DNA of 64,000 bases from Kofleriaceae bacterium. Lineage in GTDB: Bacteria; Myxococcota_A; Polyangia; Haliangiales; Haliangiaceae. The notes beneath the pieces are model-generated. The model was not told the DNA's origin, made no database searches, and saw nothing but the letters and a program-made list of their open reading frames with translations. The DNA is taken from positions 1 through 64,000 of the forward strand of contig JAGPCO010000014.1 in NCBI GenBank assembly GCA_018058095.1, given 5' to 3'. Shown piece by piece: positions 7,907 through 28,045 of this stretch (positions within the stretch are counted from its first letter, which is position 1; every line of letters begins with the position of its first letter). Both the position numbers and the translations under genes were made by a program.

Positions 7907-9034
7907 GTGATCCTGCTGCCGTACGGCACAGGGCACCTGCGCCTCGACCCAGGCTCACGCTCGGTCCGGGTGGCGGCGCCGACCCGGCCCGGGCCCGCCC
8001 CGCCGCTGCCCGACCTGCTCGTCGCGGCGCTGGCCAACCCGGTTGGAGCTGCCCCGCTGGCGGCCCACTCGGCCCGGCGGGTCCTCGTCGTGATCAGCGA
8101 CGAGACGCGGGACGAACCACGCGCCGAGTTCCTGGCCGCGGTGGCAGCCGCGTTGCCGGCCGCCGAGCTCACCATCGCCATCGGCACCGGCACACACGGC
8201 CCGAGTCGGCTCGAGGTGGGTGCGCTGCTGCCGGGGCGGCGGTTCGACGTGGTCAACCACGACGGCCACGACCGACGGCGCCTGGTCTCCCTCGGCACCA
8301 CGCCGAGGGGCACACCCGTGATGGTCGACCGCGCCGTGCTCGAGCACGACCTGATCGTCGCCACCGGCTGCATCCGCCCGCACTACTTCGCCGGGTTCGG
8401 CGCTGGCGCCAAGGCGATCTTCCCCGGCCTGGGCGGCGCGACGGAGATCCGCATCAACCACCGCCTCAAGACCGCCGCCGGCGCGCGCGCCGGTGTCGTC
8501 GACGGCAACCCGTGTCGGGCCGATCTCGAGGACGCCGTCGCCTGTGTGCCGACCCCGACGTTCCTGATCAACGGCGTGATCGGCGCCGACGGGGCCATTC
8601 ACGCCGTGGTCGCCGGGGCGCTGAACGCTGCGTTCCGGGCCGGCGCGGCGCTGGCCGGCGCCTGGTTCCGCGTCGACGCCGCCCCCGCACCGCTCGTCAT
8701 CGTGGCCGACCTCCCGCCGGTGACCTCGTCGCTGTACCAGGCGTCGAAGCTGGTCGCCAACGCCGCGCCGCTGGTGCTGCCTGGTGGCGCGCTGGTCCTG
8801 GTGGCGCCGTGTGAGCTCGGCACCGGCCCGCTGCCGACGGTGATGCAGGACATCTTCGAGATCGGGATCCGGCCACGGCTGGCACCCGGTGTGGAGGTCT
8901 ATCTGTGCTCCGACCTCGAACCGGCGGTGGTCTCCTCGACGTATGCCCGGGCCGTGGCCCCCGCGGATATCTGCCAGAAGCGTCAGGGCGATATCCTGGT
9001 GCTCCCGGCCGCCGCGAGCAGCCTGTTCATGTAG
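7907..9034 (+). CDS. larA: LarA-family (DUF2088) nickel-pincer-type racemase/epimerase
   Basis: Homologue of lactate racemase LarA, whose family isomerises alpha-hydroxy acids with a nickel-pincer nucleotide cofactor. From GTG 7907 the protein has 375 residues and begins ILLPYGTG, the usual LarA start. Visible family motifs: DETR (D65, R68), GTGTH (H97), RPHYFAGFGAGAKAIFPG (H159, K169 as candidate cofactor lysine) and NHR (H185). GAGGGG lies 7 bp before this GTG; an alternative GTG at 7760 gives an uncharacteristic Arg-rich extension. No larB, larC or larE, needed to make the cofactor, is visible in the window. Substrate is unknown, because many family members are not lactate racemases. It converges on the lanC-like gene across an AT-rich gap. 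Confidence 0.85.
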   Translation: MILLPYGTGHLRLDPGSRSVRVAAPTRPGPAPPLPDLLVAALANPVGAAPLAAHSARRVLVVISDETRDEPRAEFLAAVAAALPAAELTIAIGTGTHGPSRLEVGALLPGRRFDVVNHDGHDRRRLVSLGTTPRGTPVMVDRAVLEHDLIVATGCIRPHYFAGFGAGAKAIFPGLGGATEIRINHRLKTAAGARAGVVDGNPCRADLEDAVACVPTPTFLINGVIGADGAIHAVVAGALNAAFRAGAALAGAWFRVDAAPAPLVIVADLPPVTSSLYQASKLVANAAPLVLPGGALVLVAPCELGTGPLPTVMQDIFEIGIRPRLAPGVEVYLCSDLEPAVVSSTYARAVAPADICQKRQGDILVLPAAASSLFM

Positions 9035-9075
9035 TTGTAAGTATAGAATATTAAATGTATATTTGCGGAATAGGC
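9035..9075. other. AT-rich patch at the larA/lanC convergence
   Basis: Bases 9035-9075 are conspicuously AT-rich (for example TAGAATATTAAATG) against very GC-rich surroundings, covering the gap between the convergent genes and the last codons of the lanC-like gene. It may mark the end of an acquired segment. No hairpin with a T-tract is evident. Confidence 0.5.
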
Positions 9076-10331
9076 AACATCCACTCATCCCATGGTCGCG
9101 CCCCTTTACTGGTCGGACCAATAAAGCCGCCACCTGCGAGTAGCCCCAGGCCGATCCCTGCGGTCCCCTGCAGCAAGGACCTGGTGATCCGGTAGCCGTG
9201 CGGGGTTCGCGCCCGGAACCCGGCCGCCTCGTCGGTCGAGCGGCCGGCGAACCGGTGGCTGTGCTCGAACCAGCGGGTGCCGACCGCCGCGAGGTGAGGT
9301 GCGTCGAGCGCGATCGACGCTCGCAGGTACATCTGCATGATGCCCAGGCTGCCATGGCACAACCCGGCGTCAGCGACCTCGCCCTCCTCGGGGCTCCGTC
9401 GGGAGGCCTCCTCCAGGATCGTGGTGGCGTGGCCAAGAAGCGATTGGTCCCCGAGCGCCATCCCCGCGGACAGCAGGCCGATGGCGACACCAAGGTCTCC
9501 ATAACACCAGCCGAGCCGGCTCCAGCGCCGGCCGCTTGGTGCGCCGTGCTCGTCCACCGAGGACGGAAACAGCGCGGTCGGGGGCTTGGCGCTGGGCTGC
9601 GGCAGGCGCGTGGACTCGAGCCAGCGTGCGGCCTCGGCCAGAAGTGGCGTCGACTCGGTCGTGGCGATGCCAGCACGAACCAGGCGGGCAAGGAGGCAGA
9701 CCGTGGACGAGGCGCCGTGGGCCAGGCCCAGGTCGAACTCGCCAGGCCGCGTGGCGTCGGGCCATCGGCTGCCGCGGTCGTCCCGGATGGCATGCCTCCG
9801 CAAGTGGCCGACCGTCTCCGCCAGCCTGCTGCTCACCCGAGGACTTGCCGGCCGACCGGTGAGGTAGACGATGGCACCCAGGCTGGAGTGCAGGAGGTCG
9901 AGCTGACCAGCAGCAGCGCTGGTGACCACCGCGTCGGCGAGCACGACGTCGAGGTCGCTCAGGAGCTCCTCAAGCTGCGAGTCCAGCTCGACGACGTCGT
10001 GTTGCACCTGGTGGTCGAGGCACCAGGCAACGCCGGCGAGGCCCGAACAGAGGGAGGACCCGACGGGGGCCCGATCGTTCTGGCCATGGAGCACATCGAG
10101 GGTCGCCACCAGGGCCCGCTCCGTCAGCATGTGGTGGTGGTCGCGGCCGGTATGGGCCGAGAGGTGTCCGAAGAAGAGGGCCGCCCCGGCAGAACCATCC
10201 ATCAGACCCGGGTCAGCGCTGGTGTCCAGCCAGGCCGCGAGGTCGGCTGCGATGTGATCGAGCTGCTGGTCCAGGCTTGAGGGCATCGGCGCCAGCTCCT
10301 GGGAGCTGGTCTGCTGGGGGTGGGCCATCAT
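9051..10331 (-). CDS. LanC-like lanthionine cyclase
   Basis: A 426-residue stand-alone LanC-fold protein. The zinc-site and active-site motifs are all present: LAHGASS (H205), GWCYGDLG (C276) and GLCHGSLG (C325, H326), with the repeated Gly-rich GxAG / GSLG / GTAGIGLG helices of the alpha/alpha toroid. Family members join Cys thiols to dehydrated Ser/Thr to form (methyl)lanthionine rings in RiPPs. The start (ATG ATG at 10331/10328) is only 9 bp after the stop of a small peptide gene with a RiPP-type leader, so the two form an operon. No LanB, LanM, transporter or protease gene is visible nearby. Codon use includes more A/T third positions than flanking genes, consistent with horizontal acquisition. 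Confidence 0.9.
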   Translation of the reverse strand: MMAHPQQTSSQELAPMPSSLDQQLDHIAADLAAWLDTSADPGLMDGSAGAALFFGHLSAHTGRDHHHMLTERALVATLDVLHGQNDRAPVGSSLCSGLAGVAWCLDHQVQHDVVELDSQLEELLSDLDVVLADAVVTSAAAGQLDLLHSSLGAIVYLTGRPASPRVSSRLAETVGHLRRHAIRDDRGSRWPDATRPGEFDLGLAHGASSTVCLLARLVRAGIATTESTPLLAEAARWLESTRLPQPSAKPPTALFPSSVDEHGAPSGRRWSRLGWCYGDLGVAIGLLSAGMALGDQSLLGHATTILEEASRRSPEEGEVADAGLCHGSLGIMQMYLRASIALDAPHLAAVGTRWFEHSHRFAGRSTDEAAGFRARTPHGYRITRSLLQGTAGIGLGLLAGGGFIGPTSKGARPWDEWMLPIPQIYI

Positions 10332-10340
10332 CCTGCTGGC

Positions 10341-10514
10341 TCAGAAGGTGCGCGGGCAGTTCTGGAGGCGGTCGGTCTCACAGCACTGGTCCGCGCAGAT
10401 GCTGTGCTTGGTCCACGGCAGGGCACCCGCGGCCACCTCCTCCAGGTTGGTGGTGGTGAGGGGACGGATCGAGGTTCGGCTGAGGGAGATGCGCTTGCTG
10501 TCGTTCTTCTTCAT
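10341..10514 (-). CDS. Putative lanthipeptide-like RiPP precursor peptide
   Basis: A 57-residue peptide beginning MKKNDSKRISLSRTSIRPLT. The leader pattern (basic start, then LSRTSIRPLTTTNLEEVAAG) resembles leaders of class I lanthipeptide-like precursors of the K-L-x-L-x-K-x-T-I-x-x-L...L-x-x-V-x-G-G type, with AAGA at residues 28-31 in place of the double-Gly cleavage site. The putative core (about 27 residues) contains four Cys (C40, C44, C45, C53) and Ser/Thr at T35, S38, T47 and T56, as needed for lanthionine rings. An SD-like GGAG lies 6 bp before the ATG, and the lanC-like gene follows after 9 bp. The family assignment rests on pattern and context; it could also be a disulfide peptide. 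Confidence 0.78.
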   Translation of the reverse strand: MKKNDSKRISLSRTSIRPLTTTNLEEVAAGALPWTKHSICADQCCETDRLQNCPRTF

Positions 10515-10616
10515 GGCTGGCTCCGTGTTCCTGTTCGGGTTCCTTGGCGCCGGCGTGGCGCCTTGGTCCCAGGAGGAGCAGCACGGTTCCGGTCGCATCG
10601 GAAAACGACAGGCCCT

Positions 10617-11441
10617 GTTCCACGTGTCCCGTTCCACGCGGACATCCTGGTCCTGGCAGGGGCCATCCGTTCCACGTGGAACACCCCGGGCCGGCCGGGC
10701 CGCCCGTTCCACGTGGAACACCCCCGGTCCTGCCGGGCCACCCCGTTCCACATCAAACACCTCGGGCCGCCACCCGTTGCATGTCGGACAACCTGGTCCT
10801 GGCCAGGGCCGCCCGGTCCACCCGGAACACCCCCGATTCCGGCCGGGCCGCCTGCCCGTTCCACGTGGAACACCCGAGCCGGGCCGGGCCACCCGTTCCA
10901 CGTGGAACACCCGGGCCGGGCCGCCCGTTCCACCCGGAACAGCCCGGTTCCGGCCGGGCCGCCCGTTCCACCCGGAACCCCCGGTTCCGGCCGGGCCACC
11001 CGTTCCACGTCGGACATCCTGGTCTTGGCCGGGCCGCCCGTTCCACCCGGAACCCCCGGTTCCGGCCGGGCCACCCGCCCGTTCCATGCGGAACACCCCG
11101 GGACGGGACGGGACGTCGGACATCCTGGTCCTGGCCGGGCCGCCCGTTCCACCCGGAACACCCCCGGTCCTGCCGGGCCGCCCGTTCCACCCGGAACACC
11201 CCGGTTCCGGCCGGGCCGCCCGTTCCACGTGGAACACCCAGGTTCCGGCCGGGCCACCCGTTCCACGTGGAACACCCGGGTTCCGGCCGGGCCACCCGTT
11301 TCACGTGGAACACCCAGCTTCCGGCCGGGCCTCAACCCAGGCCGGACCGGTCCCAGGCGGGACACCTGCCGGCCAGGCCCCCGTTCCACGTGGACCATCC
11401 CAATCCCGGCAGGCTGATCCGATCCCCGTTGCACATCCGGG
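10617..11441. repeat. parS-like (ParB-binding) repeat array, about 20 degenerate units
   Basis: An array of 14-bp palindromic elements spaced mostly 37-38 bp. Exact GTTCCACGTGGAAC occurs at 10669, 10706, 10858, 10895, 11222 and 11260. One-base variants lie at 11298 (GTTTCACGTGGAAC) and 11383 (GTTCCACGTGGACC). GTTCCACCCGGAAC, altered in the centre, is at 10927, 10965, 11040, 11146 and 11184. More degenerate copies are at 10617, 10631, 10745, 10776, 10815, 11002, 11081 and 11428. The core fits the bacterial parS consensus TGTTTCACGTGAAACA at all but the inner N positions. Spacers are also conserved (CCGGTTCCGGCCGGGCC). It lies about 8-9 kb from dnaA. Long open frames across it are artefacts of the repeats. 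Confidence 0.82.
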
Positions 11442-11461
11442 GTCCCGGTCGAGCGACTCGA

Positions 11462-12598
11462 TCAGGTCAGGGCGATCCCCTCGGCGACCAGCGCAGCGGC
11501 GAGGCGCTCGATCTCCGTGGGGTGGTGCGAGGAGGACAACGTGATCCGCAGCCGGGAGGTGCCTGGAGGGACGGTCGGGGGACGGATCGGGTGAACCCAG
11601 ACGCCACGTCGGAGCAGGGCCTCTGCGGCAGCAACCGCGGCCTGTTCGCTCCCGAGCACGACCGACGCGATCGGACCTGGGCCATCACGCCCGGTCATGC
11701 TGCGCCCGAGCAGCGGAATAGCCTCACCCAGCAGACGCCAGCGAGCCGCGAGCCTTGCCCGCCGCTCATCCCCCTCGCCCCCGGCGACCAGCTCGACCGC
11801 CTCGGTCGCGCACGCGGCCAGTAGTGGCGAGATCGCGGTCGAGAACACGAGCGACCGGCTGCGGTTCCAGAGCAGCTCGCGCACCGCCGGCGTCGTCAGC
11901 ACGGCCGCCCCGGCGAGGCCGAGCGCCTTCCCGAACGTCGCCACCAGCACCTCGGGCACGACCCCGGCCTGAGCACAGGCGCCACGACCGTTTGGGCCGA
12001 CGACGCCGAGCGCGTGGGCCTCGTCGACGATGAGGGCAGCGCCGGCCCGGCGGGCTAGCTCGGACAGCGAACGAAGATCCGGCTGATCACCGTCCATCGA
12101 GAAGATGGACTCGGTGACCACCAGGCGCCGGCGTCCCGTCGGCGCTGCCGCCAGCGCCGACGCCAGCGCGCCCAGGTCGAGGTGAGGGTACACGTGCACC
12201 CGGGCCCGAGAGAGCCGACACCCGTCGATGATGCTGGCGTGATTGAGCGCGTCCGAGAACACCTCGACGTCGGGGCCGGCCAGTGCGGTGAGCAGTCCAA
12301 CGTTGGCTGCGTAGCCTGACGAGAAGACCAGCGCGCTCGGCAAGCCGACCCACCGCCCCAAGGCACTCTCCAGGAGTCGGATCGACTCGTGGTCCCCGGC
12401 GATCAGCCGAGAGGCGCCCGCACCCGTGGCCGTCGCCAGCGACGCTTCGGACCACTTCCTTGATGCTAATCCAATGTAATCATTAGAGGAAAAGCAAATC
12501 GGTGCGGGTGAACTGTGAATTCCGCTCAGGCCGCTGCGACGCCGTCCCTGCGCCTCCAGCTGGTCGAGCTCCTGAGCGGCCTCGTCCTCGAGCGACAC
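11462..12598 (-). CDS. Alpha-oxoamine synthase, BioF (8-amino-7-oxononanoate synthase) family
   Basis: PLP-dependent fold-type I enzyme that condenses an amino acid with an acyl-thioester. From GTG 12598 it has 378 residues, the usual length. Family motifs: FSSNDYIGLAS, GAGASRLIAGDH, SSGYAANVG, FSDALNHASIIDG, ESIFSMDGD, VDEAHALGVVG (D192, H195) and VATFGKALGLAG with Schiff-base Lys224. No other biotin genes are near, so AONS, serine palmitoyltransferase-like or CqsA-like activity cannot be separated. The GTG abuts a 58-bp duplicated sequence with a TATAGT hexamer 6 bp upstream of the start; an open extension to 12772 is made of that repeat and is unlikely to be coding. An AT-rich patch at about 12463-12500 lies within the 5' part. 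Confidence 0.85.
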   Translation of the reverse strand: MSLEDEAAQELDQLEAQGRRRSGLSGIHSSPAPICFSSNDYIGLASRKWSEASLATATGAGASRLIAGDHESIRLLESALGRWVGLPSALVFSSGYAANVGLLTALAGPDVEVFSDALNHASIIDGCRLSRARVHVYPHLDLGALASALAAAPTGRRRLVVTESIFSMDGDQPDLRSLSELARRAGAALIVDEAHALGVVGPNGRGACAQAGVVPEVLVATFGKALGLAGAAVLTTPAVRELLWNRSRSLVFSTAISPLLAACATEAVELVAGGEGDERRARLAARWRLLGEAIPLLGRSMTGRDGPGPIASVVLGSEQAAVAAAEALLRRGVWVHPIRPPTVPPGTSRLRITLSSSHHPTEIERLAAALVAEGIALT

Positions 12599-12600
12599 GT

Positions 12601-12740
12601 GGCGACTATACGCTGGCTGGCGTCGATCGACGTGACGCAGCACCTTTCGCGTCCTGGCCGCACGATCCCCCGAGCGGCTCGCGGCGACTATACGCTGGCT
12701 GGCGTCGATCGACGTGACGCAGCACCTTTCGCGTCCTGGC
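12601..12740 (-). repeat. Perfect 58-bp direct repeat (two copies) with TATAGT hexamers, probable duplicated promoter
   Basis: Bases 12601-12658 are repeated exactly at 12683-12740 (period 82 bp). On the minus strand each copy ends in CAGCGTATAGTCGCC, so each carries a strong -10-like TATAGT (12605-12610 and 12687-12692). The proximal hexamer would start transcription at about the GTG (12598), that is a leaderless mRNA; the distal one would give a leader about 82 nt longer. No good -35 is visible. Because 82 is not a multiple of three, the duplication is unlikely to be coding. Confidence 0.6.
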
Positions 12741-12785
12741 GGCAGCGATCCGCATCGCCAGCGCCGCGACACCGCGCGACCAGCG

Positions 12786-19045: not shown

Positions 19046-19415
19046 GGTTGGTACCGGGTCAGCTTCGTGCTGGCGGCCAGTGCGGGATGGGTGGCCCCGG
19101 TCCGGATTACCAGCCGGCCGTCGTCCACCCCGGACGGGTCTCCCGCACAAAGGACATTTCCAAGCAATTACAAATCACTACAAGATGTTCTCCACATCCT
19201 GTCCGCTCCCGAGGTCCGGAGCGCCGGACAGCGGGTTCGGGAGTGGAAGCGATGTCCGCCACTTCCAAATCCGACCCTGTTTGTCCTTGTCGCCTCGATT
19301 CTGTGTCTGTTAGGTAAGCGCTCGATCTTGGACCGACGGTGAGTGGTGACGGCGGGCGAGGCAGCACCGACGGGCCGGGAGTGACGACGAGGGCCACGGG
19401 CCGCCCAGAGGCGCC

Positions 19416-19424
19416 TGTGGATAA
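19416..19424 (-). promoter_or_regulatory. DnaA box (exact consensus)
   Basis: TGTGGATAA is the reverse complement of the TTATCCACA consensus, 101 bp upstream of the dnaA start; it could act in initiation or dnaA autoregulation. Confidence 0.75.
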
Positions 19425-19524
19425 CCTCTGGCAAAGCTCTGCGTTAGCTGTCGACACGTCCGTCCTCCTGGAAGCACAAGAACATGAATTCAAACAGTTT
19501 TGTCCACGGCACCCCGGGGGATGG

Positions 19525-20988
19525 ATGTCACTGACTGAATCCGAGACCCCGCCGCTGTGGAACCAGGCGCTCGATCGCCTGCGCGCCCGCGTGTCCGAGC
19601 AGAACTTCACGATGTGGCTGCGCCCGATGGAGTGCACCACCCTCGAGGACGGGGTGCTGCGCCTGCGCGCCCCCAACAGCTACGTCCGCCTGTGGTTCGA
19701 GTCCAACTTCCTCGAGGCCGCGCTGGCCGAGGTCCGGACCCTGGCCGGCACCGACGAGGTCGCCATCGCCTTCGAGCCGGACGGCCCCGACGTCCGTCCG
19801 CGCGAGACCATCGCCGCCGAGCCACCGCAGCCTGCGGTCGCCGCCGCCACCATGTCGCGCGACGCCGGCGCGCCTGGCGCCAGCCCCTCGAGCGCGACCG
19901 TCGGCGTCGGTGCCGGAACCACCAGCGCCAGCAGCGCCGAGGCCGACCTGGCCGAGCCGCCGCCGCTGGCCAACCTCAACCCGCGCTACACGTTCGACAC
20001 CTTCGTCTCGGGCCCGTCCAACCAGCTGGCCTTCGCCGCCTCGCTGGCCGCCGCCTCGACCTACCCGCCCAAGTACAACCCCATCTTCCTGTGTGGTGGC
20101 GTCGGGCTCGGCAAGACCCACCTGCTGCACGCCATCGGCCACCAGCAGCTGGCGCTGCGGCCCGGCTCGCGCGTGGTCTACATCTCGAGCGAGCGGTTCA
20201 TGAACGAGTACGTCTCGTCCATTCGCACCAGCCGCATGCCGGAGTTCCGCAAGCGCTACCGCGAGGGCATCGACGTGTTGCTCGTCGACGACGTGCAGTT
20301 CCTCGCCGGCAAGGACGGCACCCAGGACGAGTTCTTCCACACGTTCAACGCGCTGCACGAGGGCCACAAGCAGATCGTGCTGACGGCCGACCGCAAGCCG
20401 CACGAGATCTCGGACATCGCCGACCGCCTGCGCTCGCGTTTTGCCTGGGGCCTCCTGGCCGACATCGGCCCGCCCGAGCTCGAGGTCCGCATCGCCATCC
20501 TGCGCAAGAAGGCGGCGATCGAGCACATCCCGCTGCCCGACGACGTCGCCCTGTTCATCGCCTCCTCCATCAAGAGCAACGTGCGCGAGCTCGAGGGCGC
20601 CCTCATCCGCCTGGCCGCGTACGCCTCGCTGTCGAAGCGCACCATCGACCTCGGCTTCGCCCAGGAGACGCTCGGCGGCACGCTGCTGCGCGCGCGCGAG
20701 GTCATCACCGTCGACGCGGTCATCAAGGCGGTGGCGAGCTACTACTCGGTGCGCGCGGCCGACATCAAGAGCGACCGCCGCCACAAGTCGATCGCCGGCC
20801 CGCGCGCGGTGGCCATGTACCTGGCCCGGCAGCACTGCAAGGACAGCTACCCCGACCTCGGCCGCGCCTTCGGTGGCAAGCACCACACCACGGTCATCTC
20901 CGCCGTCGAGAAGATCGCCGACCGCCTCAAGGAGGACCCCAGCCTGCGTGGCGAGCTGCACGCGATCGAGGGCCAGCTGAGCCGCTGA
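19525..20988 (+). CDS. dnaA: Chromosomal replication initiator protein DnaA
   Basis: AAA+ initiator that binds DnaA boxes and opens oriC. From ATG 19525, preceded by a G-rich SD (GGGGG), it has 487 residues. Domain I: LWNQALDRLRARVSEQNFTMWLRPM; a variable Ala/Ser-rich domain II (about 90-150); AAA+ domain starting NPRYTFDTFVSGPSNQ with Walker A GGVGLGKTH and Walker B DVLLVDDVQFLAG; domain IV with the DNA-binding signature GRAFGGKHHTTVISAV. An upstream ATG at 19339 opens the same frame, but the added residues are not DnaA-like and span a DnaA box. Flanked by long intergenic regions on both sides. Confidence 0.98.
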   Translation: MSLTESETPPLWNQALDRLRARVSEQNFTMWLRPMECTTLEDGVLRLRAPNSYVRLWFESNFLEAALAEVRTLAGTDEVAIAFEPDGPDVRPRETIAAEPPQPAVAAATMSRDAGAPGASPSSATVGVGAGTTSASSAEADLAEPPPLANLNPRYTFDTFVSGPSNQLAFAASLAAASTYPPKYNPIFLCGGVGLGKTHLLHAIGHQQLALRPGSRVVYISSERFMNEYVSSIRTSRMPEFRKRYREGIDVLLVDDVQFLAGKDGTQDEFFHTFNALHEGHKQIVLTADRKPHEISDIADRLRSRFAWGLLADIGPPELEVRIAILRKKAAIEHIPLPDDVALFIASSIKSNVRELEGALIRLAAYASLSKRTIDLGFAQETLGGTLLRAREVITVDAVIKAVASYYSVRAADIKSDRRHKSIAGPRAVAMYLARQHCKDSYPDLGRAFGGKHHTTVISAVEKIADRLKEDPSLRGELHAIEGQLSR

Positions 20989-21460
20989 GGCCCGGGCGCT
21001 CAGGCCGGGCGCTGGCGACTCGCTCCCTCGTGAGCAACGGTCGACCCGCACCTCCCGGCCTGAGGACAACCCTGTGATCTCAGCTGTGCACCAGATCTGA
21101 CCAACTCGCCCGACCCGACTTGTCCTCAATTCACACCGCCGACGTCCTCCGCTCCGCTCACTGCTCACCCCACACCTGCACGTCGCGCCAACCAGCCAGA
21201 ACCAAGAGCGAATCCAGGATATCCACACCGTCCACAGGACCTACTGATCTCTCTACCAAGATCGATCTTAAACCTCTCTGATCAGATCCAGAGAGGCCCG
21301 GACCTCGACCCGGACCCCGCACGAACCAACTCGCTCGCGTCCGCACCCAGGCTCGCGTACACCTCTGCAGCTGCGCTCATCACCGCCCTGACCTCCAGCA
21401 TCAGACCCTGCGGGCAGAATCACCGCCCGCCACGAACCGACGCCACGACCGGAGACCGCC
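20989..21460. other. dnaA-dnaN intergenic region, second origin-like segment
   Basis: 472 bp without a gene, unusually long for this gene pair. Contains ATATCCACA (21219-21227, one mismatch to a DnaA box) next to CCGTCCACA, a stretch rich in GATC/AGATC (21246-21288), and a perfect 8-bp inverted repeat CCTCTCTG / CAGAGAGG (21273-21296). Composition is less GC-rich than the genes. It may be part of a bipartite origin or contain dnaN promoter and regulatory sites. Confidence 0.5.
21273..21296. other. Inverted repeat CCTCTCTG-N8-CAGAGAGG
   Basis: Perfect 8-bp arms with an 8-base loop (ATCAGATC), 285 bp after dnaA and 165 bp before dnaN. No T-tract follows, so it is not a standard terminator; it could be a protein-binding palindrome in the origin region. 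Confidence 0.45.
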
Positions 21461-22555
21461 ATGGAGTTTCGCATCGCCAAGACCGAGTTCCTTCGCGGGC
21501 TCCGCCTCGCGCAGAACATCGCCGACCGCAAGAGCACGATGCCGCTCCTGGCCAACGTGCTGCTGCGCACCATCGGCAAGAACAAGCTGCTGGTGGCGGC
21601 GACCGACCTCAACGTGTCGCTGGTGGCCGAGCTCAAGAGCACCAACACCACCGAGGGTGGGTTGACCGTCTCGGCCAAGAACCTGCACGAGCTGGTGTCG
21701 AGCGCGCCGGGTGACGACATCGTCGTCAAGAAGGGCGACAACAACTGGGCCGAGCTCAAGAGCGGCAAGGTCAGCTACCGCATCGTCGGCATGTCCGACC
21801 GCGACTTCCCCAAGGTGCCCGACGCCAAGGAGGCCGCCGCCGTCGAGGTCGAGTCGGGCGCCCTGCGCGAGATGATCGACCGCACCCTGTTCTCGGTGTG
21901 CAACGACGAGACACGGTTCCACCTCAACGGCGTGCTGTTCGAGTCCGACGGCGCGAACGCGCGCATGGTCTCGACCGACGGCCACCGCCTGTCGAAGGTC
22001 GCGCGCGAGCTGGCCGGGCCCAAGCTGTCGGCCGGCGTCATCATCCCCAAGAAGGGCATCCTCGAGCTCAAGCGCCTGCTCGAGAGCGGCTCGACCTGCA
22101 AGCTGGCGGTGAAGACGCCGTACCTGTTCGCGGTGTGCGACGACCTCACGCTGGCCATCAAGCTCATCGAGTCGCAGTTCCCGCCGTACGAGCAGGTCAT
22201 CCCCAAGGACCTCAAGAAGCAGGTCGTGGTCGACCGGGTCCGGCTCATCGAGTCGCTGCGCCGGGCCCAGCTGATGTCGTCGGAGACGCGCGGCGTGAAG
22301 TTCGCGCTCGGCGACGCCAACCTGACCATCACCAGCGACAACCCCGACCTGGGCGAGGTGCGCGAGGAGCTCGACGTCGACTACAGCGGCGGCGCCATCG
22401 CCATCGGCTTCAACCCGAAGTACGTCATCGAGCTGCTGTCGCAGATGTCGGCCGACCAGATCGCGCTCCACCTCGGCGGCGAGCTCGACCCCGGCGTGTT
22501 CAAGCCGATGTCGGGCGACGACTACCTCGGCGTCGTCATGCCGATGCGCATCTGA
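21461..22555 (+). CDS. dnaN: DNA polymerase III subunit beta (sliding clamp)
   Basis: Ring-shaped processivity clamp of the replicase. 364 residues, the usual size, beginning MEFRIAKTEFLRGLRLAQNI; three similar clamp domains, with the conserved LPLLAN-like STMPLLANVLLRT near the N-terminus, VSTDGHRLSK in domain 2 and the C-terminal VMPMRI that ends the peptide-binding pocket. An SD-like GGAG lies upstream of the ATG. Followed after 27 bp by recF, which is typical. Confidence 0.98.
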   Translation: MEFRIAKTEFLRGLRLAQNIADRKSTMPLLANVLLRTIGKNKLLVAATDLNVSLVAELKSTNTTEGGLTVSAKNLHELVSSAPGDDIVVKKGDNNWAELKSGKVSYRIVGMSDRDFPKVPDAKEAAAVEVESGALREMIDRTLFSVCNDETRFHLNGVLFESDGANARMVSTDGHRLSKVARELAGPKLSAGVIIPKKGILELKRLLESGSTCKLAVKTPYLFAVCDDLTLAIKLIESQFPPYEQVIPKDLKKQVVVDRVRLIESLRRAQLMSSETRGVKFALGDANLTITSDNPDLGEVREELDVDYSGGAIAIGFNPKYVIELLSQMSADQIALHLGGELDPGVFKPMSGDDYLGVVMPMRI

Positions 22556-22582
22556 GCGCGGCGACACGCGCGAGCACGGCGC

Positions 22583-23719
22583 ATGCGCATCGAGCACCTG
22601 CAGGCCGAGGGCGTGCGCAACCTGGCGCGCCTGGACCTGAGCCCGAGCACCCGGTTCGTCGTCGTGTCGGGCGACAACGGCCAGGGCAAGACCAACCTGC
22701 TCGAGGCGGTCTACACCGTCGCCACGCTGCGCTCGTTTCGCACCGCACGGATGGCCGATCTGGTCGGCTGGGGCCACGAGCAGGCCCGGCTGGCGGCGCG
22801 GGTGGCACGTGGCGGCCTGACCCGGGTGTACGAGCTGGCGCTGACCCGGCAGGGCCGCAGCGTGAGGCTCGACGGCAAGGTGCCGCGGCCGCTGGCGCGG
22901 TACTTCGGCGACTTCAACGTCGTCATGTTCGCGCCCGAGGACCTGTCGGTGCCGCGCGCGGCCCCGGCCGACCGCCGGCGCTTTCTCGATCGCGCGGTGT
23001 TCAACGACGCGCCGGCCCACCTGGCGCTGGCGCAGGACTACGACAAGGTGCTGCGCTCGCGCAACCGGGTGCTCAAGCAGGCCGAGGGCGGCGGCCTGCC
23101 GCGCAGCCAGGTCGAGGGGCTGCTCGAGGTGTACGACGTCCAGCTGGCCAGCTACGGCGCGCAGCTGGTGGTGCAGCGCGAGGCCTTCCTGGCCCGCATG
23201 CGGCCGCGCCTGCAGGAGGCGTTCGAGGCCATCACGCGCACCGGCTTCCCGGTCGACCTGGCGTACCGGCGCTCGTTCGCGCCCGACGGTGCGGCGGAGG
23301 GCGCGGCGCCGGTGGGTCTTGCCGACGTGCAGGCGGCGCTGGCGGCGGCGCTGGGGCACGCGCGCGGCGCCGACCTGGCGCGCGCCACCACCTCGGTCGG
23401 GCCGCACCGCGACGTGCTGGAGTTCGACTTCCGCGGCAAGGAGGCCGGGGCGTTCGCCTCGCAGGGCCAGCTGCGCGCGCTGGTGCTGGCGTGGAAGACC
23501 AGCGAGCTGGCGATGATCGGGGCCAGCCGCGGCGAGCTACCCGTGCTCCTGCTCGACGACGTCTCGAGCGAACTCGACGCCGACCGCAACCGCTACCTGT
23601 TCGAGCACCTGGTCGGCCTGGCCGGCCAGTGTTTCATCAGCACGACCCATCCGCGGCACGTGCTGGTCGATCGCGAGCGGACCGACCTGCGCATCGAGGG
23701 CGGCGTGCTGGTGGGCTGA
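22583..23719 (+). CDS. recF: DNA replication and repair protein RecF
   Basis: SMC-like ATPase that helps load RecA at single-strand gaps together with RecO and RecR. 378 residues; N-terminal LQAEGVRNLARLDL, Walker A SGDNGQGKTNLLEA, the signature region SQGQLRALVLAWK, and Walker B LLLDDVSSELDADR. Lies 27 bp after dnaN in the same orientation, and its stop is 1 bp before the next start, indicating a dnaN-recF-membrane-protein transcript. Confidence 0.97.
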   Translation: MRIEHLQAEGVRNLARLDLSPSTRFVVVSGDNGQGKTNLLEAVYTVATLRSFRTARMADLVGWGHEQARLAARVARGGLTRVYELALTRQGRSVRLDGKVPRPLARYFGDFNVVMFAPEDLSVPRAAPADRRRFLDRAVFNDAPAHLALAQDYDKVLRSRNRVLKQAEGGGLPRSQVEGLLEVYDVQLASYGAQLVVQREAFLARMRPRLQEAFEAITRTGFPVDLAYRRSFAPDGAAEGAAPVGLADVQAALAAALGHARGADLARATTSVGPHRDVLEFDFRGKEAGAFASQGQLRALVLAWKTSELAMIGASRGELPVLLLDDVSSELDADRNRYLFEHLVGLAGQCFISTTHPRHVLVDRERTDLRIEGGVLVG

Positions 23720-23720
23720 G

Positions 23721-24092
23721 ATGATGGCGATGCTCTTCGCGATCATCATGGCGGCGCTGGTCGTCTTCCAGCTCGCGCTCGCCGGCGGGGCACCGTGGGG
23801 CGCGCTCGCCTGGGGCGGGGCCCATCCGGGGCGGCTGCCGCGACGGTTGCGGATCGCCTCCGCCGGATCGACCGTGGTGTACGTCGGCATGGTGGTGCTC
23901 GCGCTCGATCGTGGTGGTTGGCTCGACGTCATGTCCGACCCCGCCTCGACCACGGGCATGTGGGTGGTGGCGGGGATCCTGGGCCTGGGCGTGCCGATGA
24001 ACCTGGCCTCACGGTCACGGCCGGAGCGCCTGGTCATGACCCCCGTCGTCACCACGCTCACGGTCCTGGCAGCGCTGATCGCACGCGGCTAG
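23721..24092 (+). CDS. Small membrane protein of unknown function
   Basis: 123 residues with about four hydrophobic helices: MLFAIIMAALVVFQLALAG, then after a short WG-rich segment (GALAWGGAHPGRLP) STVVYVGMVVLAL, WVVAGILGLGVPMNLA, and VVTTLTVLAALIARG at the C-terminus. The arrangement (G-A-P-W-G...W-G-G near helix 1, R-S-R-P-E-R before the last helix) resembles small conserved membrane proteins seen in Actinobacteria and Myxococcota, but I cannot name a family. Starts 1 bp after recF (ATG 23721 or 23724), so it is probably co-transcribed with dnaN-recF. Confidence 0.78.
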   Translation: MMAMLFAIIMAALVVFQLALAGGAPWGALAWGGAHPGRLPRRLRIASAGSTVVYVGMVVLALDRGGWLDVMSDPASTTGMWVVAGILGLGVPMNLASRSRPERLVMTPVVTTLTVLAALIARG

Positions 24093-24246
24093 CGCTGGCC
24101 AAGCCGCCGGCCAGCGAGGTCGCCGGGTCCTGCGGTGGCCACGCCCGGCGTGCCATGCCCTGTCGCACAGAGGGAAATAAAATAGCACTTACGGTAATTT
24201 GCGAGCCAATACAGGAGTGGCGTGGTGGTTGCTCCTGGAACCCATC
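24093..24246. other. Intergenic region with an AT-rich promoter-like patch
   Basis: Bases 24172-24208 (GGGAAATAAAATAGCAC and following) are AT-rich in a GC-rich context and probably hold the promoter of the small lipoprotein at 24247. A convincing -35/-10 pair could not be fixed. Confidence 0.4.
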
Positions 24247-24540
24247 ATGCCGACCAACCACTCCATGACCTCCCCCTCCGCCCCCTCCACGCGTCGCCGG
24301 CGTGGCCTTGCCGCGCTGGTTCTTGCGGTGGCCGCGACCAGCGCCGCCGGCTGCACCATCGCGCTCCCGATGGCGACGACCGTCCAGGCAAACGAGTCGA
24401 ACCGGCACGCCGTTCGCGAGGGCAAGGAGCCCTCCAGATCGGTGCTTCGCAGCTTCGCCGGCGGGTTCCTCGTCGGCGCCGCGATCGACTCGATGCTCGT
24501 GCTGGGCGCGATGCGGCAGACCTTCCACTACCCTGACTGA
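24247..24540 (+). CDS. Small lipoprotein, unknown function
   Basis: 97 residues from ATG 24247 (a longer frame opens at 24199). N-terminal basic segment STRRRRGLAALVLAVAATSAAGC gives a twin-Arg-containing but classical lipoprotein signal with lipobox AAGC. The mature part (about 55 residues) ends in a hydrophobic glycine-rich helix (SFAGGFLVGAAIDSMLVLGA), possibly membrane-inserted. No family recognised. The gap to recF's partner holds an AT-rich promoter-like patch. Confidence 0.65.
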   Translation: MPTNHSMTSPSAPSTRRRRGLAALVLAVAATSAAGCTIALPMATTVQANESNRHAVREGKEPSRSVLRSFAGGFLVGAAIDSMLVLGAMRQTFHYPD

Positions 24541-24711
24541 GGACGCGGCCGCCCTGGCCGACCGCGCCAGCGCTGGCGGCCGCGGATGGTCGGTCGATGG
24601 GTTCACCCGACCTCGTCGCCGCGGTCGCCGGCCCGTCGACTCGCCAGCGGCCATGCAAGCGTCGGGAACCACGAGGCGAACCACCATCGGCCGCCGGCAC
24701 GTGGGTTGCTG

Positions 24712-25452
24712 ATGGCGCCCGCCATGAGGCACCTCGCTCTCGCCCTCGTTCTCGCCTCTGCCTCCGCCATGGCGGCGACCGGCTGCGTCGCCGCCGAAGA
24801 AGACGACGCGCTCGAAGACGACGGCGCGCCGGCCGGCGGCAAGGGCGACGACCCGACCGCGCCGGCGCCGGTGCGGGTGGTGGTGTCGGGCTTCGCGCCG
24901 TTCCTCGACTACCGCGACAACGAATCGGGCGAGGTGGCGCGCCGGCTGGCGCAGGACGTACCGGCCGGGCTGGTGGTCGAGCACCACATCCTCGAGGTGT
25001 CGCCGGCAGCGATCGACGCGTTCGTCGACGAGATGCAGGCGCTGCGACCGGCCGTGGTCATCTCGCTCGGCTACGAGGGCCTGGCCCAGCTCGAGGAGCG
25101 CCCCGAGAACATCCTGCACGCCGGCAGCAACGGCGTCGGCGCCGAATGGGCCGGGCGCGCCGTGGTCGAGGGTGGCCCGGCCGAGCTCGGCACCGACCTG
25201 CCGACCGCCGTCGTCGATGGCGCGCTGGCCGGCTTCGGCTGGCGCCGCACCGTGCGCACCGCCCGGCTCGATCGCGACTACGAGCCGACCCACGACGGCT
25301 ACGTCTGCAACTACCTGGCGTACCGCCTGGCCCACGCCTTCGGGCCCGATGCCGACGTCGCCGCTGGCTTCTTCCACGTCGACTCGCGCCGCGTCACCGA
25401 CCAGCTGCGCGCGGTCCTGGTGGCGGTGGCCGAGCACCAGCGCACGCGCTGA
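24712..25452 (+). CDS. Lipoprotein with pyroglutamyl-peptidase I (C15)-like domain
   Basis: 246 residues from ATG 24712 (24724 also possible). Signal LALALVLASASAMAATGC with lipobox ATGC, then AEEDD...GGKGDD, the linker type shared with two other lipoproteins here. The domain matches peptidase family C15: VVVSGFAPFLDYRDNESGEVA corresponds to the N-terminal strand/loop, LGYEGLAQLEERPENI to the catalytic-Glu region, YVCNYLAYRL to the catalytic-Cys motif, and GFFHVDS to the His. So the Glu-Cys-His set appears kept. Classical C15 enzymes are cytosolic and remove N-terminal pyroglutamate; an exported lipid-anchored form is unusual. Lies upstream of gyrB. Confidence 0.78.
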   Translation: MAPAMRHLALALVLASASAMAATGCVAAEEDDALEDDGAPAGGKGDDPTAPAPVRVVVSGFAPFLDYRDNESGEVARRLAQDVPAGLVVEHHILEVSPAAIDAFVDEMQALRPAVVISLGYEGLAQLEERPENILHAGSNGVGAEWAGRAVVEGGPAELGTDLPTAVVDGALAGFGWRRTVRTARLDRDYEPTHDGYVCNYLAYRLAHAFGPDADVAAGFFHVDSRRVTDQLRAVLVAVAEHQRTR

Positions 25453-25487
25453 AGACCGGGCCCGGAAATGGGTCCGGATCTCGCGCC

Positions 25488-28045
<2,558 letters not shown>

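Follow-up and report, generated by a model that had tools for sequence, protein, structure and literature searches.

The 64,000-nt stretch of DNA analysed here, hereafter the window, is part of an 83.8-kb contig (C130) in a 7.6-Mb genome (G000) that is 97% complete and assembled in 227 contigs. It carries a small gene encoding a LanA-type lanthipeptide precursor, directly followed by a gene encoding a LanC-type cyclase, and a neighbouring array of parS sites (Table 1). Full translation of the first gene yields MKKNDSKRISLSRTSIRPLTTTNLEEVAAGALPWTKHSICADQCCETDRLQNCPRTF, in which the 57 residues, the division into leader and core, and the four cysteines described in an earlier note on this DNA were all recovered, with further support from similarity to NF038153 and from the recurrence of the core type in two precursors of another genus. 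When compared to NF038153 (lant_leader_L1a, 'class I lanthipeptide'), the leader scored 17.9 bits (E=0.0026), slightly below the curated cut-off of 22 bits. Its sequence, ISLSR-TSIRP-L...AAG, fits the LxLxKx5L motif with two conservative swaps (I for L and R for K), and ends in AG, whereas its relatives end in GG. A leader profile (A2) built from 14 leaders of this type recognised the window precursor with E=2e-11, a value to be read with the window row itself being part of the profile.

Table 1. Features of the precursor-LanC locus, and loci carrying related leader peptides
Feature	Position or locus	Strand	Basis or remark
LanA-type precursor gene, 57 aa: MKKNDSKRISLSRTSIRPLTTTNLEEVAAG (leader), ALPWTKHSICADQCCETDRLQNCPRTF (core)	10341..10514	-	ORF, NF038153, leader profile, core relatives
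Leader, residues 1-30	10425..10514	-	alignments of leaders; motif from PMC7268733
Core, residues 31-57; 4 Cys, 1 Ser, 3 Thr	10344..10424	-	
Shine-Dalgarno GGAG, 6 bases 5' of precursor ATG	10521..10524	-	sequence
LanC-type zinc cyclase, 426 aa (411 aa if the start is ATG 10286)	9051..10331	-	PF05147, NisC alignment, LanC alignment, model
parS array, 15 sites within 2 mismatches; neighbour, outside pathway	10669..11396	+	0.17 sites expected
Leader beside LanB	G004:C341, G006:C436, G006:C1059, G009:C100, G015:C227, G027:C1197		
Leader beside LanC, no LanB in stretch examined	G009:C62, G015:C610, G015:C713, G020:C448, G020:C456, G034:C47, window		

The occurrence of four Cys among 27 core residues has a probability of 4e-5 at the local Cys frequency, and the Ser/Thr and Cys residues are suited to ring formation, with T and S preceding Cys in a conserved motif. 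This motif, [LI]PxT[KR]HSxC, is common to the window precursor and two precursors of another genus of the same family (G020), ALPWTKHSIC in the window resembling ALPQTKHSYC (G020:C36) and MIPLTRHSAC (G020:C424). None of 2000 shuffles of the window core matched the score of either pairing against the same sequence, and three of 2000 reached the top score obtained across the 15 cores in the comparison. No LanC was found beside these two G020 precursors in the stretches examined, indicating that this core type exists without an adjoining LanC. Beside Bacteroidota LanCs, a search for PxT[KR]HSxC found no occurrence.

The second gene product matched PF05147 with 119.7 bits (cut-off 23.2; E=1e-34). 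Alignment with NisC placed H205, C276, C325 and H326 in register, and among 18 LanCs of this genome and its relatives C276, C325 and H326 were invariant, R272 and Y277 nearly so, which bears out the active-site residues named in the earlier note. The set of zinc ligands (C, C, H) and catalytic H/R is thus complete (H205, R272, C276, C325, H326). In structural comparisons, the AlphaFold model (pLDDT 83, pTM 0.87) gave its best matches with two class I cyclases, MadC (Z 38.6) and NisC (Z 37.2); LanCL proteins ranked lower, as did the cyclase domains found in LanM, LanKC and LanL. The fold is common to sugar-active toroid enzymes, and the protein might accordingly be a LanC-like one with another role, as are eukaryotic LanCL or the zinc-motif-free Bacteroidales proteins, with the small ORF beside it incidental. 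This is very improbable given the complete zinc ligands and catalytic H/R, the ranking of MadC and NisC as top structural matches, and the immediately adjacent precursor with its class I leader and Cys-rich, recurring core. The 9-bp gap reported earlier between precursor and LanC holds if LanC starts at its first ATG (10331), but a good Shine-Dalgarno sequence (AGGAG) precedes an in-frame ATG at 10286, which may be the translation start and would bring the gap to 54 bp. The first 10 residues counted from 10331 have a pLDDT of about 41 in the model.

At the matching site in congeners, TsaD is followed by a response-regulator gene, a LarA-like gene, rsmG, parS, bioD, bioA, bioF, mnmE and jag, and the precursor-LanC pair is absent; the names rsmG, bioD and bioA rest on the translated genes of G004 and G007. 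In the window, the pair and the parS array occupy the interval between the LarA-like gene and bioF. As positions 9034-11462 hold these elements and not rsmG, bioD or bioA, the three genes are either elsewhere or lost. The pair does abut the parS array, as had been noted, with the first of the 15 sites 155 bp from the precursor start; this adjacency is real, but nothing links array and gene pair functionally. In the array (10669-11396), GTTCCACGTGGAAC occurs in exact copies and GTTCCACCCGGAAC as a recurring degenerate version, at a spacing of about 37-38 bp; ParB binding may have been lost by the degenerate copies. Direct repeats were observed at 12500-12770, with GDYTLAGVDRRDAAPFAS recurring in a reading frame on the opposite strand. 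These repeats surround the first possible bioF start, and the true start therefore probably lies downstream of them. The genes dnaA, dnaN, recF and gyrB are found at 19339-28045, about 9-10 kb from the pair in the case of dnaA, and the pair likely sits close to the chromosome origin.

Neither the 64-kb window nor its 83.8-kb contig encodes a dehydratase, in agreement with the earlier observation that neither LanB nor LanM is visible in the window. The genome search for a LanB-like dehydratase suggested at that time was carried out on a six-frame translation of the whole genome and revealed a single PF04738 match, on contig C2 (C2:2001-4010; E=5e-157). Its product is a full-length class I enzyme of 1087 aa comprising Lant_dehydr_N and Lant_dehydr_C, with a PF14028 match at E=6e-74. 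Alignment with NisB, using residues whose roles are general knowledge for that enzyme, showed conservation of R-x3-R before STPFG, RYxDP...HxRxR, EVERYGG and the C-terminal His region (H961 region). This lanB follows a second lanC gene (PF05147), upstream of which the 15-kb contig ends after about 590 bp, and no leader-type precursor was seen on C2. With 227 contigs in the assembly, C2 could be a binning error, but the LanB is congener-like, with 46-50% identity to the LanBs of congeners, which speaks against it. A LanM-type dehydratase was ruled out, no DUF4135 being present in the genome. Five C39 peptidase domains were detected, all away from the locus and none linked to it.

Searches with the leader profile revealed five peptides on four contigs of this genome: the window precursor, one each on C204 and C112, and two on C223. 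The C204 precursor has a seven-Cys core, and neither LanB nor LanC was found by genome-wide searches on its 172-kb contig. The orphan leader peptides on C112 (79.7-79.9 kb; L042 7711-7920) and C223 (7701-8065; L044) are convergent with, or overlap the ends of, WD40-repeat-like genes, an association seen in these two instances only. Both C223 peptides have short Cys-free cores, KKPTSAEPDER and RIGMDATNRPTTD. The tabulated loci of relatives yielded about 60 leader peptides, a number of them adjoining LanB, others LanC only and many neither, with the proviso that related assemblies are mostly fragmented and 'beside neither' can reflect the end of a stretch or contig. Up to 24 leaders occur in one genome (G020), together with six LanC-type matches and, besides a small overlap fragment, only two LanB pieces on separate contigs (profile positions 1-327 and 327-608), which may represent one gene split by assembly. 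At least four further genomes (G009, G015, G020 and G034) also have precursor-then-LanC pairs without LanB, their cores differing. The association of peptide and LanC in relatives is upheld to this extent, but not at the congeners' matching site, where the exact pair is missing. In these loci, the LanC match usually begins 63-104 bp after the precursor stop. At G027:C1197, precursor, LanC and LanB form a single run, its leader being 47% identical to that of the window and its LanB 48% identical to the C2 enzyme.

The leader co-occurs with the enzymes. Among the 29 nearest genomes, leader and LanC were each found in eight, and these were the same genomes. Across the class, 18 of 241 genomes have the leader, and LanB was detected in 17 of these 18 versus 66 of 241 overall (Fisher p=7e-10), or in 11 of 12 once profile-source genomes were removed (p=1e-6), both p-values being too optimistic because the genomes share ancestry. 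Two genomes of distant families outside the profile (G081 and G172) also have leaders encoded within a few kb of LanB, on the same contig. The earlier note had left a choice between a dehydratase encoded elsewhere and a different chemistry; the full-length LanB, its co-occurrence with the leader and the leaders adjoining LanB in relatives favour the former, and the latter is not needed with a LanB in the genome. A motif-intact LanC was observed with a leader peptide 5.8 kb away in G021 (G021:C311; L045), a 99% complete assembly in which no LanB was found, and peptides with the same leader can be Cys-free (G000:C223, G015:C211 and G034:C111). Both observations would fit a LanC that works outside classical LanB chemistry, with another enzyme making the dehydro residues, or a core modified otherwise, as in another RiPP class having the leader in common. 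With a LanB that tracks the leader and no LanM-type dehydratase in the genome, such a chemistry is nonetheless improbable.

Phylogenetic analysis provided information on the possible origin of the pair. The window LanC lies on a long branch and clusters with Bacteroidota LanCs (support 100/99), apart from the LanCs of its own family; one row of the tree (L058) is marked lone although LanB follows, which leaves this placement unaffected. Direct searches of GTDB genomes returned relatives mainly from Bacteroidota, with 23-34% identity. The closest, from Chitinophaga, belong to operons of precursors and LanC with an adjacent LanB, and in Chitinophaga niastensis, near the window LanC in the tree, three precursors precede LanC in the same order as in the window, with an adjacent LanB in divergent orientation. 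On these sequence data, acquisition of a precursor-LanC half-cluster by transfer is plausible, and the grouping with Bacteroidota LanCs implies that the partner LanB might differ too. Together with the absence of the pair from congeners at the matching site, the tree and the Chitinophaga gene order could also mean that the pair, decaying or newly acquired, is half of a class I cluster resembling that of Chitinophaga, with LanB either lost since or never brought along, and that its lanthipeptide is no longer made. We consider this unlikely, since both reading frames are uninterrupted and the active-site residues complete, their GC3 is host-like (0.83-0.91), and relatives of the resident LanB adjoin the same leader type; nor would decay predict LanB-less pairs recurring in several genomes with different cores.

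The interpretation that we favour, with a probability of roughly three in four, is that of a dispersed class I lanthipeptide system to which the pair belongs as a satellite locus, the precursor being dehydrated in trans by the single C2 LanB and cyclised by its own LanC. On this view, what looks incomplete is best regarded as a known pathway whose genes are spread out. Precursor, LanC and LanB are all intact, and the same leader, which co-occurs with LanB and LanC, is common to LanB-adjacent, LanC-adjacent and orphan precursors; each catalytic step we infer from the enzyme families. The precursor would be made with its LxLxKx5L-type leader, which the C2 LanB would bind in trans so as to dehydrate core Ser/Thr with glutamyl-tRNA. 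The LanC encoded behind the precursor would then add core Cys to the dehydro residues, giving (methyl)lanthionines, with rings most likely built on the T and S within LPWTKHSIC and on the Thr preceding the final Cys. Leader removal after ...AAG and export of a putatively bioactive product may then fall to a C39-type peptidase transporter whose gene lies away from the locus. Counting against this class I reading are the G021 LanC and leader lacking a LanB, the Cys-free peptides with the same leader, and the leader score below the NF038153 cut-off. A broader proposal, to which we give even odds, is that of a network in which one or few LanBs would dehydrate scattered precursors, up to about two dozen in number and all with the same leader, and in which single precursors would be accompanied by dedicated LanCs as mobile satellite pairs, ring pattern being set locally and dehydration centrally. 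The same LanB would then feed different LanCs, which would allow one to test directly whether ring pattern is dictated by the cyclase or by the core sequence.

The chemistry is that of ordinary class I systems, and the unusual part is the layout, with scattered precursors and few LanBs. Like NisA-NisB-NisC, the system would be expected to combine the same two enzyme activities, and it conserves NisC and NisB residues; nisin's operon is clustered. The nisin leader is of the FxLD type. Class I systems of Bacteroidota (pinensin-type, with LanA bearing an LxLxKx5L leader, LanB, LanC and a C39 protease) have leaders that often end in GG and a C39 protease nearby (Walker et al., PMC7268733). They resemble the window locus in leader motif, near double-Gly end, precursor directly before LanC and closest LanC relatives, but the window locus has no LanB, transporter or protease, its LanB is on another contig, and the Bacteroidota matches do not include the host genome. 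Stand-alone LanCs of Bacteroidales are similar in having no nearby LanB, but the zinc motif is missing from those studied and LanB from their genomes (PMC10352776), whereas both are present here. Mining in PMC7268733 covered genes within seven of a LanC. Cluster-based mining of this kind ties precursors to nearby synthetases, and orphan precursors and LanB-less pairs would thus be missed or called broken. No class I description of a LanB acting in trans or of dispersed precursors was found in the literature searched, which reached little into subscription papers; a dispersed layout is already known for the class II prochlorosins. In that system (SyncA-SyncM; PMC7268733, PMC10783134), a single LanM serves many scattered precursors with a conserved leader and variable cores. 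The likeness lies in the few enzymes and in precursors encoded away from the synthetase, five leaders being on four contigs here and LanB on a fifth. In contrast to prochlorosins, the enzymes are a class I LanB and LanC with no LanM, the leader is not of the Nif11 type, and some precursors bring their own LanC. If true, this would be a class I counterpart of the prochlorosins, with a promiscuous LanB and a natural variety of substrates.
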